DNA from: Guyparkeria hydrothermalis | Lineage (GTDB): Bacteria > Pseudomonadota > Gammaproteobacteria > Halothiobacillales > Halothiobacillaceae | Assembly (NCBI RefSeq): GCF_023555385.1 | Contig: NZ_JAJSED010000001.1 | Location: 868,001-932,000 of the forward strand | Reading direction: 5' to 3' | DNA length: 64,000 nt | Shown here: positions 42,195 to 45,304 of the stretch, one piece after another | Layout of the letters: each line of letters begins with the position of its first letter | How positions within the stretch are numbered: position 1 is the first letter of the stretch | Made by a program: the position numbers and the translations under genes | Notes under the pieces: generated by a model | Told to the model about the DNA's origin: nothing | The model's database searches: none | The model's input: the letters and a program-made list of their open reading frames with translations, nothing else

Positions 42195-42511
42195 CAGTCG
42201 TAATGAACCGCCAGCCAGATTGTGTCCTCGTCCGGCGCCGTCCAGGCGACGCGATGGCGACGATGCGCGGCAATGCTCAGGTGATCGCCAGGACCGAGGC
42301 TGACCTCCTCGCCATCCTCGAACGCCACCACGCCGCGCCCCCTGAGCACCACCACCCACTCGTTGCGCGGCTCGTCGTACCAGCCGGAGGCCGGTGAAGC
42401 GTGACCCCGCGAAACGATGCGCTCGACCGTGACGTTGCCGGCCTCGACCAGGGCGTCGAACCATTCGTCCGGCAGCTGCGCGGGCAGGTTTTCAAACAGA
42501 TTCGCCGTCAT
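42194..42511 (-). CDS. cupin-domain protein
   Basis: A 105-residue single-cupin protein: RIVSRGHASPASGWYDEP, WVVVLRGRGVVAFEDGEEVS and LGPGDHLSIAAHRRHRVAW. Metal ligands are the His of RGHASP, the Glu of NEWVVV and the His of HRRHRV. Cytoplasmic; role unknown. The ATG at 42511 has GGAGGG upstream. Confidence 0.85.
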   Translation of the reverse strand: MTANLFENLPAQLPDEWFDALVEAGNVTVERIVSRGHASPASGWYDEPRNEWVVVLRGRGVVAFEDGEEVSLGPGDHLSIAAHRRHRVAWTAPDEDTIWLAVHYD

Positions 42512-42668: not shown

Positions 42669-42866
42669 ATGGCTTCAGACCGCATCGAAGGCAACTGGAA
42701 ACAGCTCAAGGGCCGCATCAAGCAGGAATGGGGACAACTCACCGATGACGACCTGGACGAGGCCGAGGGTCATCGCGATTACCTGATCGGCAAGGTCCAA
42801 GAGCGCTATGGCATCGCAAAGGAGCAGGCACGGGAGCAGGTGGAAGCATTCGAACGCAAGCTTTGA
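42669..42866 (+). CDS. CsbD-family stress protein
   Basis: A 65-residue hydrophilic protein with the CsbD pattern: IEGNWKQLKGRIKQEWGQLT and HRDYLIGKVQERYGIAKEQA. CsbD proteins are abundant after osmotic or general stress; their role is unknown. GGGAGG lies upstream. A hairpin (42881-42905) follows. Confidence 0.92.
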   Translation: MASDRIEGNWKQLKGRIKQEWGQLTDDDLDEAEGHRDYLIGKVQERYGIAKEQAREQVEAFERKL

Positions 42867-42880
42867 ACTTCCGCTCGACG

Positions 42881-42905
42881 GTCGCTGATCCCTGAGATCA
42901 GCGAC
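42881..42905 (+). terminator. hairpin after the CsbD gene, no T-run
   Basis: Perfect 10-bp stem GTCGCTGATC/GATCAGCGAC with loop CCTGA starts 15 bp after the stop. No U-tract follows, so it may stabilise the mRNA end rather than terminate by itself. Confidence 0.55.
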
Positions 42906-43013
42906 CCGATCAACCCTCTCCCCTCTCAAGCTCACAGCCCGTCACTACGGGCCGCGGCTATTCAAGTACACGACATTCGAATGCCGCCAACACGACGGCA
43001 CGAAGTCGCCCCT

Positions 43014-44216
43014 TCAAGCAGAGACAATCAACTGGGCATCGTTAAGCTCGGCCAGCAGCGAACCCACGTCGGCCTCGATGCGCGCCGGCGACACATCCGG
43101 GAAGTGTTCGACGAGCAGTTCACTCACCTCCCTTCCGGACATCGCCTCCTCCTGCAGCAGCCCCCAGACCAGATGGCCAGTGCCGTTCAGGCGGTGGATG
43201 GCACCACTGGAAGGCTCGATCAGGAAACGTTCGTCGCCCAGTTCGTATTCACGCAGGCCCGACGCCACGCACCAACGATCATCGATAGCCACCGGTGCGG
43301 CAGTCGATCGAGCCGGGGATTCTTCCCACTGGGCGCCGGAGGCCTTATCGATGCTGTCGATGACCCCCGGAAGCGACGTGCGCAGGCAGCGGGCCGCCGC
43401 CAGGGGCTCGGGGTAGCGCAGCAATCGGCACGGCAATGAACGCATGAGGGGAAGGAAACGCTCCATCAGCGCCTCGCTGGGCAGATCGTGGGCGAAATGC
43501 TGGCGCAACAAGCGGGTGAGCCCCTCGCCCGGCGCCAGCGGGACGAGCTCCGGCTTGCCGAGTTGCTCGTCACGCTCCAACAGGACCACGGCACCCAGCG
43601 GCAGGCTCTCGCCGTGACGCGCGAGTTGCCCTTCCGGCAGGTTCAGATAGCGATAGCGGTGATCTTCCGCCGCGGCGTGCGCGGCGGTGTAATTGTGAAG
43701 GGCGACATCCACCGCCGGAGGCGTGGGAAGCGGCAGGCGCAGTCGAGGCGAGATGCCCAGCGCCATGCCTCGCCCACCGTCCTCGAGCACCAGCACGTCG
43801 TCACCGAACACTCGCAACCCGCCACCGGCAAGCGCCGCGACCAGGGTGCTCTTTCCCGCACGATGCGTCTCCGGGAACAGCACCAGACGGCCGTTGATTT
43901 CCACCGACGCGCAATGGAGCCCGACCAGATCGGGGTGCAGGGACAGATACCGTTCGACCAGGTCCGCAGTGACACTGCAAACCGCCGCCACCGGCGATTC
44001 GTGCGTCACGCCCTGGGGGTAATTCGGGGAGATTTGGCGGCATGCCGGCGCGTCACCGGCAATGCGGATGTCTGGTGCCGGACCTTCGCCCTCGATCACC
44101 GTCATCCGCCAGCCCGGCAGCGCGGTCTCGAGGAGGCTCGGAAACTCCGGGCACCCGGATACGCGGATTACCCGACCGAGGCCCGGCAGGAGGATGTCAC
44201 GAACGCCACCCGGCAT
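43014..44216 (-). CDS. HPr-kinase-like domain fused to a C-terminal PqqD domain
   Basis: A 400-residue protein. The middle (about residues 115-260) has an HPr-kinase-like P-loop, HCASVEINGRLVLF then ETHRAGKSTLVAAL, and a paired-Asp motif VFGDDVLVLED like the catalytic Asp block of HPr kinase. The last 90 residues are a PqqD-type peptide-binding domain (WCVASGLREYELGDERFLIE, AIHRLNGTGHLVWGLL). PqqD domains act as recognition elements for ribosomally made peptides, and HprK-like kinases phosphorylate some of them. The ATG at 44216 overlaps the stop of the upstream His-rich gene (TAATG), so the two are translationally coupled. The fusion of two normally separate partners is unusual. The product is not known. 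Confidence 0.85.
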   Translation of the reverse strand: MPGGVRDILLPGLGRVIRVSGCPEFPSLLETALPGWRMTVIEGEGPAPDIRIAGDAPACRQISPNYPQGVTHESPVAAVCSVTADLVERYLSLHPDLVGLHCASVEINGRLVLFPETHRAGKSTLVAALAGGGLRVFGDDVLVLEDGGRGMALGISPRLRLPLPTPPAVDVALHNYTAAHAAAEDHRYRYLNLPEGQLARHGESLPLGAVVLLERDEQLGKPELVPLAPGEGLTRLLRQHFAHDLPSEALMERFLPLMRSLPCRLLRYPEPLAAARCLRTSLPGVIDSIDKASGAQWEESPARSTAAPVAIDDRWCVASGLREYELGDERFLIEPSSGAIHRLNGTGHLVWGLLQEEAMSGREVSELLVEHFPDVSPARIEADVGSLLAELNDAQLIVSA

Positions 44217-44527
44217 TACCAACGGCTGGGATGCAGGAGGATGTTGAAGTGCATGCTGCTGTCGTGGTGATCGTGGTGGTGGCGACGCCGACGACGGTAA
44301 TCGTCGTGATAGTAGTGACGCTCTTCGTAGTAGTGATGATCGTGATGCCCACTCGGCCGGCTGTAGCTCGGGTGGGAATAATGGCCGTGATGCCCGCCGT
44401 GATGAGGCGGCGCCGCCCGAGCGACGTTGACCAACGTCGGCGCGACATAGGCGCCGGCCACGCCCGCGCCCAGCGTTACTAACAGGCGGCGACGACGATC
44501 GATACGGTTCGACTTGTGGTCACTCAT
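44216..44527 (-). CDS. Tat-exported His/Tyr-rich small protein
   Basis: A 103-residue protein. The N terminus has a twin-arginine signal (DRRRRLLVTLGAGVAGAYVA, cleavage near ARAAP). The mature 65 residues hold 19 His, 7 Tyr and 7 Ser, including SGHHDHHYYEERHYYHDDY and RRRRRHHHDHHDSSMHF; there are no cysteines. The composition suggests metal binding. Its stop overlaps the start of the HprK-PqqD gene by one base. It may be that enzyme's substrate or a metal-binding partner; both are inferences. AAGGGGA lies 6 bases before the ATG. Confidence 0.82.
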   Translation of the reverse strand: MSDHKSNRIDRRRRLLVTLGAGVAGAYVAPTLVNVARAAPPHHGGHHGHYSHPSYSRPSGHHDHHYYEERHYYHDDYRRRRRHHHDHHDSSMHFNILLHPSRW

Positions 44528-44773
44528 AAGGAATCCCCTTGTCACGGTTCATGGTGATCCCGGCCATTCGTCACGAGGCCGCTTCATCCTTCGGACAGCC
44601 GAAGAACCGGAAAGTGCCAAAGATCGCCCCAGGGTGCACCACGACAGGATTGCCGACCGCTCGATACGACACGAAAAAGCTGCCGAAGAACACGGTCTTG
44701 CCGCGCCACCCCGCCAGCCGGCAGCCGGCAGCACCGATGCCGGTCGAACCGATCGCCGCGCGCATTCCCGTCG

Positions 44774-45304
44774 TTAACGAGTCTCCGGCGGCAACATCGG
44801 CCGTGCAGGCCGGAATGCTTCATGGAACGAGACGACACCCCGAGGGACACGGCCCTCGAACGGCAGGACGAAGAAGACCTCGGCCGGCACCCCATCGACG
44901 GCAAGATCCGTTGGGTGCCGGAAACCGAAGCGGGGGTAGTAGTCCGGGTGGCCGACAAGGCAGCACCCGCGGGCGCCGAGGCGTTTCAGGCTCGCCACTC
45001 CTTCGCGGATCAGGGCCGCACCGATGCCCTGGCGCTGGCAATCGGGGCGCACGGACACCGGTCCCAGCGCGTACCAGCCAGGTGCTCCGTCGGAGATCGT
45101 CACCGGCGAGAAGGCGATATGGCCCACCACTTCGCCATCACACTCGGCTACCAGGGAGACGGCCAGGGCCCCGGCGGCTCGCAGCACCTCGATGACGTAC
45201 GGCTCGTTGTGGTCACTGATCTCGAGCGGCGCGAAGGCCGCCTTCGTGACCTCGCCGATCGCCTCGGCATCAGTGGACGTCTCGGTGCGGATGATGAAAG
45301 GCAT
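44774..45304 (-). CDS. GNAT N-acetyltransferase
   Basis: A 176-residue acetyltransferase. The acetyl-CoA site is VRPDCQRQGIGAALIREGV, followed by LKRLGARGCCLVGHPDYYPR and FRHPTDLAVDGVP, the pattern of the YhbS-like group. Its closest relative in the window is the gene at 60964-61488. The ATG at 45304 has GGAG 8 bases upstream; a GTG at 45310 is possible. It is upstream of the His-rich peptide gene with a 246-bp gap. Confidence 0.9.
   Translation of the reverse strand: MPFIIRTETSTDAEAIGEVTKAAFAPLEISDHNEPYVIEVLRAAGALAVSLVAECDGEVVGHIAFSPVTISDGAPGWYALGPVSVRPDCQRQGIGAALIREGVASLKRLGARGCCLVGHPDYYPRFGFRHPTDLAVDGVPAEVFFVLPFEGRVPRGVVSFHEAFRPARPMLPPETR

Follow-up and report, generated by a model that had tools for sequence, protein, structure and literature searches.

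Introduction

Phosphorylation of a ribosomal peptide by an HprK-like kinase, guided by a PqqD-type RiPP (ribosomally synthesised and post-translationally modified peptide) recognition element (RRE), is a theme common to the LPP and lasso peptide systems. BsfK, the kinase of the Bsf lasso system, phosphorylates a serine of a YxxPxL peptide, a reaction that the RRE speeds up (PMC10368454). The motif bound by lasso and LPP RREs is [Y/W]xxPx[L/V/I/F/A] (PMC13381572, PMC10368454), and for each of TbiB1, LppB, PbaB1 and TfuB1 there is either a structure with a [YW]xxP leader or evidence of binding to one; in LppB, N33 fixes the kink at the leader proline and D70 makes a hydrogen bond to the leader tyrosine (PMC13381572). 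Here, we compare these systems with a pair of adjacent genes in Guyparkeria hydrothermalis, lying in a stretch of 64,000 nucleotides (contig NZ_JAJSED010000001.1, positions 868,001 to 932,000; hereafter the window), in which an HprK-like kinase fused to a PqqD-type RRE follows a small peptide bearing a twin-arginine translocation (Tat) signal.

From sequence and structure comparisons, we propose that these genes probably form a minimal two-gene system, in which the Tat signal would serve as the RiPP leader, the RRE would hold it, the kinase would phosphorylate serines of the mature part, and the Tat pathway would export the product. A literature search covering few subscription journals found neither a prior description of an RRE-kinase paired with a Tat peptide, nor a paper describing the HPr-rel-A systems (TIGR04352 kinase with TIGR04353 PqqD-type chaperone).

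Results

The peptide gene (44216..44527, minus strand; 103 aa, stop 44216-44218) comes first, and the fusion gene (43014..44216, minus strand; 400 aa, ATG 44216-44214, stop 43014-43016) second. Homologues of this pair were gathered from 57 relatives, a named genome collection scanned with two short patterns, samples of 369 class and 398 phylum genomes, and 151 Halomonadaceae genomes. These sources gave 36 distinct loci in which the kinase precedes the RRE: six in Guyparkeria, 24 in Halomonadaceae and six more distant. At 35 of the 36, a small Tat gene lies directly upstream on the same strand; the gap between peptide and kinase ranges from -7 to +12 nt in 32 loci and measures +54, +113 and +160 nt in the other three, with start codons chosen mechanically for this count. 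The initial annotation had proposed that the fusion is coupled to a small Tat peptide, and would have abandoned the idea had the two never occurred together; the coupling holds at all but one of these loci. One counted locus has kinase and PqqD as separate, overlapping genes, with the peptide present (L042, in genome G087). Dropped from the 36 were weak or partial hits, namely lone kinases, lone PqqD proteins and reverse-order fusions (L007-L010, L027-L038, L052-L060, L078-L080, among which the lone PqqD loci L030, L031, L037 and L038 were scanned only); L062, because L019 has an identical peptide; L011-L015, under which five of the loci L002-L006 appear again as named records; and rows that duplicate counted loci in full, in part or in shorter form (L021-L026, L039, L044, L045, L049-L051, L061, L070, L086-L089, L146-L156).

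Searched for separately, kinase and peptide are found in the same six of 11 Guyparkeria genomes. The same holds for Halomonadaceae, a set that includes Vreelandella jeotgali (G897), which has the peptide: kinase matches at E < 1e-130 pick out the same 20 genomes, among the 151, as peptide matches at E < 1e-25, and outside those 20 a lone kinase is matched weakly, near 1e-11, in a few cases. When 21 neighbourhoods were compared (open reading frames of at least 90 aa, flanks of up to about 6-7 kb and some shorter), BLAST clustered the kinase in every one of the 21 and the peptide in 16; the five remaining peptides were recognised by pattern. The largest other cluster of real genes is present in nine of the 21, the larger clusters being antisense or shifted frames over the pair. 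In a kinase tree comparing L001-L006 with L016-L020, L040, L046-L048, L063-L077 and L084, the kinases of Guyparkeria fall together in a single clade (support 1.00), and this clade joins L020 amid the Halomonadaceae sequences (0.93; the rooting is arbitrary), a placement that suggests horizontal transfer.

Residues 1-38 of the peptide make up the Tat signal (44414..44527, minus strand), with an arginine run within 44486-44497 and an ARA end, the cleavage site being placed by eye. Only seven columns show no variation across the 35 peptides: R12, R13, L16, G20, Y27, P30 and A38. Y27 and P30 belong to YVAPTL (44432..44449, minus strand), a YxxPx[LVMF] motif that, as part of AYVAPTL, closes the hydrophobic stretch of the signal and is a candidate RRE-binding motif; A38 is the likely cleavage-site alanine. 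As a control, we took other Tat-signal matches from three genomes (the 30 of 54 that came with loci), and [YW]xxP was found near two of the 30, one of which does not resemble a Tat signal. The sequence marks of a Tat signal are present: the twin arginines and A38 are invariant in the 35, and a hydrophobic stretch can be recognised by eye. TatC was found in seven of seven genomes.

Beyond the signal, the mature parts of the Guyparkeria and Halomonadaceae peptides carry YSRPS-type repeats, with between 1 and 12 SRP per peptide; in the window this is the serine repeat SHPSYSRPSG (44348..44377, minus strand), a candidate phosphorylation region. The mature parts of the more distant peptides are Gly/Ser-rich (L041, L042, L083) or contain SRGSWGS (L082) or PSV repeats (L043). 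Serine makes up 10-24% of the mature parts and, because tyrosine is absent from five of the 35 and threonine from 22, it is the only hydroxyl residue found in all of them. SR[PG] is over-represented relative to shuffled sequences (p < 0.05) in 30 of 35 peptides; S-x-x-S is over-represented in 18 and not in the remaining 17.

The peptide is under purifying selection. Among the six Guyparkeria copies, the ratio of nonsynonymous to synonymous change (dN/dS) is 0.09 in the signal, 0.04 in the SRPS stretch, 0.21 in the His/Arg stretch, 0.13 in the linker (where dS is near saturation) and 0 over the last nine residues (pS 0.42). The value of the His/Arg stretch is the highest finite one; dN of the N-terminal tip and of the 39-50 linker lies above that of the His/Arg stretch, with dS saturated or near-saturated. 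The C-terminal end, NILLHPSRW (44219..44245, minus strand), is identical in the six aligned Guyparkeria peptides despite synonymous change. An RW terminus is found in most YSRPS-type peptides; L019, L073, L074 and five distant peptides lack it, and L047 ends in RGW. As judged from these alignments, what is conserved in the peptide is the twin arginine, YxxP, the cleavage-site alanine and the serine-rich repeats, and not its richness in histidine.

The partner that could read this motif is the C-terminal RRE of the fusion (residues 313-400; 43017..43280, minus strand), assigned by Pfam PF05402 (PqqD; 45.8 bits, cut-off 23.4), by its fold and by profile matches. Residues 313-400 of the model match the TbiB1-leader complex 5v1v with Z 12.6 and a root mean square deviation of 1.7 over 86 residues, so the PqqD call survives a structure search. 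A search of PDB with the fusion profile gave nine matches at E up to 1: TbiB1 (1.7e-8), LppB (1e-6), PbaB1 (4.5e-5) and TfuB1 (0.09) in the RRE part, HprK 3tqf (E 0.2) in the kinase part, and four midasin matches, which were taken as chance. By sequence profile, then, the best PDB matches of the fused RRE are lasso and LPP RREs. The residues that contact the leader in LppB, whose numbering we counted by hand along the profile alignment, are also largely kept. N344 (43185..43187, minus strand) aligns with LppB N33 and is Asn in 32 and Asp in two of 34 fused rows, a third Asp in this column belonging to the kinase-only row of L042, outside the fused rows. D383 (43068..43070, minus strand) aligns with LppB D70 and is Asp in all 34 fused rows that cover the site; the stand-alone RRE of L042 and a reverse-order fusion, L085, have an equivalent Asp.

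The kinase domain (residues 1-291; 43344..44216, minus strand) was delimited from an AF2 model and its structural matches. Pfam gives no match for this N-terminal, HprK-like part, and TIGR04352 a partial one (32.1 bits, cut-off 200). The model, built from an alignment of 35 sequences (pLDDT 90, pTM 0.87), shows two domains joined by a low-confidence linker (286-303). In fold comparison, HprK 3tqf and 1ko7 match with Z 13.0 over residues 96/97-291, the grounds on which we call the domain HprK-like, and PEPCK structures match a larger part of it with Z up to 14.9, ranking above HprK both in Foldseek and by Z; the modelled domain is thus of the HprK/PEPCK fold. That one protein combines an HprK-like with a PqqD-type domain, as the initial annotation had it, is confirmed by the PF05402 score and by the folds.

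BsfK requires H148, G163, K169, S170, D186 and D187 (PMC10368454), and five of these have counterparts at equal spacing that are invariant in 35 of 35 aligned rows: H101 (43914..43916, minus strand), the histidine of the lasso-kinase motif, assigned to H148 by spacing; K122 and S123 of the P-loop P115-E-T-H-R119-A-G121-K122-S123-T124 (43845..43874, minus strand); and D139-D140 (43797..43802, minus strand), which correspond to D186-D187. Within the P-loop, P115, R119 and G121 are likewise kept in all 35 rows.

The 103-residue Tat-type peptide does overlap the fusion by one base, as initially described: TAATG (44214..44218, minus strand) joins the TAA of the peptide gene (44218-44216) to the ATG of the fusion (44216-44214), an arrangement that likely couples their translation. 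An in-frame TTG at 44222 is a possible alternative start of the fusion, and AAGGGG (44535..44540, minus strand), picked out by eye, is the likely ribosome-binding site of the peptide gene. A scan of 42860-44800 returned 0 promoter-like and 0 terminator-like sites and was uninformative. The host genome is a single contig of 2.39 Mb. A phage origin was considered and set aside, as neither the peptide nor the fusion has a PHROGs match to E 0.1.

The neighbouring genes considered as further members do not belong to the system. The GNAT gene upstream, which the initial annotation had thought a possible member, falls in a region that clusters with two other Guyparkeria loci among the 21 neighbourhoods, at other distances, and a CsbD neighbour was ruled out by the same comparison. 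A cupin gene was also rejected as a member by this comparison; it lies downstream of the pair in the window and upstream in L006. The cupin protein of the window (42197-42511, minus strand) matches the C-terminal part of TIGR03890 nif11_cupin at 86 bits (cut-off 159), and the similar cupin frame of L006 stands directly upstream of the pair.

Two further loci outside the count are recorded here as side observations. In L085 (G230, minus strand 10783-9130), a PqqD-HprK fusion of reverse order has as its neighbour a Tat peptide of 90 aa that contains YTPPAV and Ser-Trp repeats, and the gene after this fusion resembles, by eye, a nucleotidyltransferase. At L009 (G048):1318-1995, a PqqD protein in which Glu replaces the Tyr-binding Asp adjoins a Tat-type peptide of 54 aa containing FVPPAI.

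Discussion

How might such a pair work? We infer binding, serine phosphorylation, Tat export and a control that holds the precursor until it is modified. With translation probably coupled, the fusion would be made beside its peptide. The twin-arginine signal would double as a RiPP-type leader, its hydrophobic stretch ending in Tyr-x-x-Pro-x-Leu, and the C-terminal RRE would capture this YxxP in the cytoplasm and bring the mature part within reach of the kinase domain in its own chain, which would then phosphorylate serines of the mature repeats (YSRPS here). An unmodified precursor bound by the RRE would be kept from export; once modified, it would be released with its signal exposed to TatBC, and signal peptidase would cut after the invariant alanine, so that the motif is discarded with the leader. 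In the YSRPS type, the product would be a chain of alternating arginine and phosphoserine. We read the Tat signal as the ligand of the RRE because YxxP is invariant, because the RRE matches those of lasso and LPP systems, and because the contact residues are kept.

Several observations weigh against this proposal. The presence of YxxP in 35 of 35 listed peptides (with Met at the last motif position in one) leans on selection, as the final listing pattern required YxxP; no motif filter was applied in listing 15 of the loci, and the other 20 came through a filter that contained [YFWL]xxP. The motif also overlaps the hydrophobic region of the Tat signal, which leaves RRE binding at this place putative, and the peptide of the window scores 12.2 bits against TIGR01409 (cut-off 16.7; the relative L082 scores 20.2). 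In the kinase, two of the three P-loop glycines of BsfK are replaced: E116 stands at G163, a position occupied by E, D, S, A, Q or N among the aligned rows, and R119, an invariant arginine, stands at G166. Nor is the association with a peptide universal. The exception among the 36, G403 (L081:5942-7079), has split HprK and PqqD genes with a canonical P-loop and the Tyr-binding Asp kept, and no YxxP Tat peptide was found by pattern within 6 kb; the substrate of this pair may lie elsewhere. Guyparkeria sp. SCN-R1 has, some 3.2 kb upstream of its intact pair, an additional peptide gene accompanied by the truncated relic of a kinase (L012:2129-2604), a peptide persisting without a kinase of its own, and weak peptide matches near 1e-6 occur in the Halomonadaceae genomes G755 and G800 away from any counted fusion. 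For the reverse-order PqqD-HprK fusions L052-L055, no Tat peptide was found in 1.5 kb flanks, nor, for two of them (as L090 and L091), within 6 kb flanks; not every RRE-HprK fusion, therefore, follows the rule.

The altered P-loop is the reason to consider a different role for the fusion, since the kinase domain may handle nucleotides in an altered way. Dedicated Tat proofreading chaperones hold the signals of redox enzymes before release to TatBC, and the fusion could be a Tat-signal chaperone with a nucleotide switch, the altered P-loop domain controlling, through its binding of ATP, when the signal is handed on to TatBC. Such a role would account for the replacement of glycines by E116 and R119, for a motif that lies inside the Tat signal, and for a signal that stays constant while the mature parts differ greatly (YSRPS, GGS and PSV types). 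However, the fusions invariably keep the H, GKS and DD found in active lasso kinases, at the same spacing, and the serine-rich repeats are retained and, in Guyparkeria, constrained. In BsfK, changing G163 to Ala lowered solubility and activity, whereas G166 proved dispensable, its change to Ala leaving the enzyme active with no loss of activity (PMC10368454), and the latter result also speaks against the chaperone. On balance we regard the chaperone as unlikely. Rather more doubtful is a different transfer to the peptide, be it several phosphates on one serine, a nucleotidyl group or a PEPCK-like reaction. Two points speak for it: the LPP kinase puts several phosphates on one serine (PMC13381572), and PEPCK structures rank above HprK. 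Against it, HprK and PEPCK have this fold in common, and the pairing with an RRE is that of peptide kinases.

The remaining alternatives concern the peptide itself. The initial annotation took histidine-richness as its defining feature and offered, next to modification before export, a metal-binding role; on that reading the peptide would be an exported His-rich protein and the kinase incidental or regulatory. Indeed, 20 of the 103 residues are histidine in the window, and the six Guyparkeria copies have 11-20. Yet the histidine count of the mature part ranges from 0 to 19 over the 35 loci; it is 0-3 in 12 of the 29 loci outside Guyparkeria, and 0 in four of those, with the pair intact. Because the count varies in this way, and because no other segment reaches a finite dN/dS as high as that of the His/Arg stretch, histidine-richness does not define the peptide, and we consider a metal-binding role very improbable. 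A chance neighbourhood of unrelated genes, for which we found no supporting point, deserves next to no credence given the peptide at 35 of 36 loci, the matching genome sets in two families, and the 21 neighbourhoods, of which the largest other cluster of real genes covers nine. Of the fates first envisaged for the peptide, it is modification before export that the evidence supports as a reading, and metal binding that is not favoured.

Could the same principle operate beyond the fused type? Scores over the cut-off for HPr-rel-A were obtained in 16 of 143 genomes, and in eight of the 12 best loci, which were read (L134-L145), a Tat-type protein of about 190-240 aa lies upstream of the kinase (L134, L136, L139, L140, L141, L142, L143, L145). 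The signal ends in Pro-hydrophobic-Thr in seven of these eight proteins, all eight have an SGxxSGNLS-like element (exact in five), and the four that were tested match no Pfam or NCBIfam family over cut-off. An RRE was scored at E up to 0.05 in eight of the 12 loci, three of them weakly (L137-L139), and the D383-type Asp is present in none of the eight, L135 being left aside in this contrast; the Tat protein was identified in five of those eight loci, none with Tyr at the motif. Among the unscored RREs, alignment by eye puts L at the site in L140, I in L143 and possibly D in L142. This pattern suggests a principle shared by the fused YxxP type and the HPr-rel-A type.

We tentatively, and with somewhat less than even confidence, posit a general strategy in which the Tat signal itself is the RiPP leader and RRE-kinases, reading a short motif in such signals, phosphorylate the cargo on serine while it is still in the cytoplasm and gate its export. 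The fused YxxP type, with its repeat peptides, and the orphan HPr-rel-A type, with SGxxSGNLS, would then be two branches, the Tyr-binding Asp being present or absent according to the motif, and what is exported would be a disordered repeat peptide, phosphorylated beforehand, in which arginine and phosphate alternate in the YSRPS type. If the two-gene proposal holds, it would describe a peptide-modification pathway of no more than two genes, in which a single chain both recognises and modifies the peptide and an ordinary export signal acts as the leader, one motif solving both maturation and secretion. Secreted phosphoserine repeat peptides would be predicted in these bacteria, and the Tat proteins encoded upstream would be candidate substrates for the HPr-rel-A systems.

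Placed among described systems, the pair works like the RRE-guided kinases of lasso and LPP pathways, in the sense of the proposal above, and is itself a member of neither, nor of HPr-rel-A. Its likeness to LPP (LppA/LppB/LppK of Bacillota; PMC13381572) is considerable: an HprK-like kinase with a PqqD-type RRE, a YxxP leader motif, a linear peptide with no cyclase, and N344 and D383 in the places of LppB N33 and D70. The LPP gene set, however, comprises a discrete RRE, an SpI-like peptidase, an NTP transferase and an MsbA-like transporter (PMC13381572), whereas the present pair has its RRE fused to the kinase, a Tat signal as leader and a serine-rich repeat as core, and occurs in Guyparkeria, in Halomonadaceae and in further genomes of their phylum. 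No third gene, whether of the LPP set, a lasso cyclase or a B2 peptidase, is conserved in more than nine of the 21 neighbourhoods; for the macrolactam cyclase and B2 peptidase this rests on the neighbourhood comparison, as the neighbours were not searched singly with lasso models. The Bsf lasso system (BsfK/BsfB1; PMC10368454) resembles the pair in its YxxPxL leader and in the RRE-assisted phosphorylation of a precursor by an HprK-like kinase, and paeninodin in the binding of the leader by a PqqD-like RRE (PadeB1; PMC5067487). From these phosphorylated lasso peptides the pair differs in its fused RRE-kinase, its two replaced P-loop glycines and its Tat leader.

An RRE associated with a precursor that bears an export signal has also been described for the Sec-signal precursors of DUF2063/DUF2282, for which that study found no specific RRE motif (PMC12710340); in our aligned peptides, by contrast, the motif is invariant and lies inside a Tat signal. 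HPr-rel-A has in common with the pair an HprK-related kinase and a PqqD-type protein, and differs in keeping the two genes separate and in an SGxxSGNLS-like element in place of YSRPS repeats; besides the partial match to TIGR04352, the fusion scores 17.6 of the 35 bits needed for TIGR04353, and on these two scores, both well short of the cut-offs, it is no member of HPr-rel-A. Lastly, the Tat proofreading chaperones of the TorD/DmsD/NarJ type have a fold unrelated to the RRE-kinase fusion. The likeness here is one of task, for in both cases a cytoplasmic protein would hold the Tat signal until maturation is complete; the difference is that, in the two-gene system we propose, the holder would carry the modifying enzyme as well.

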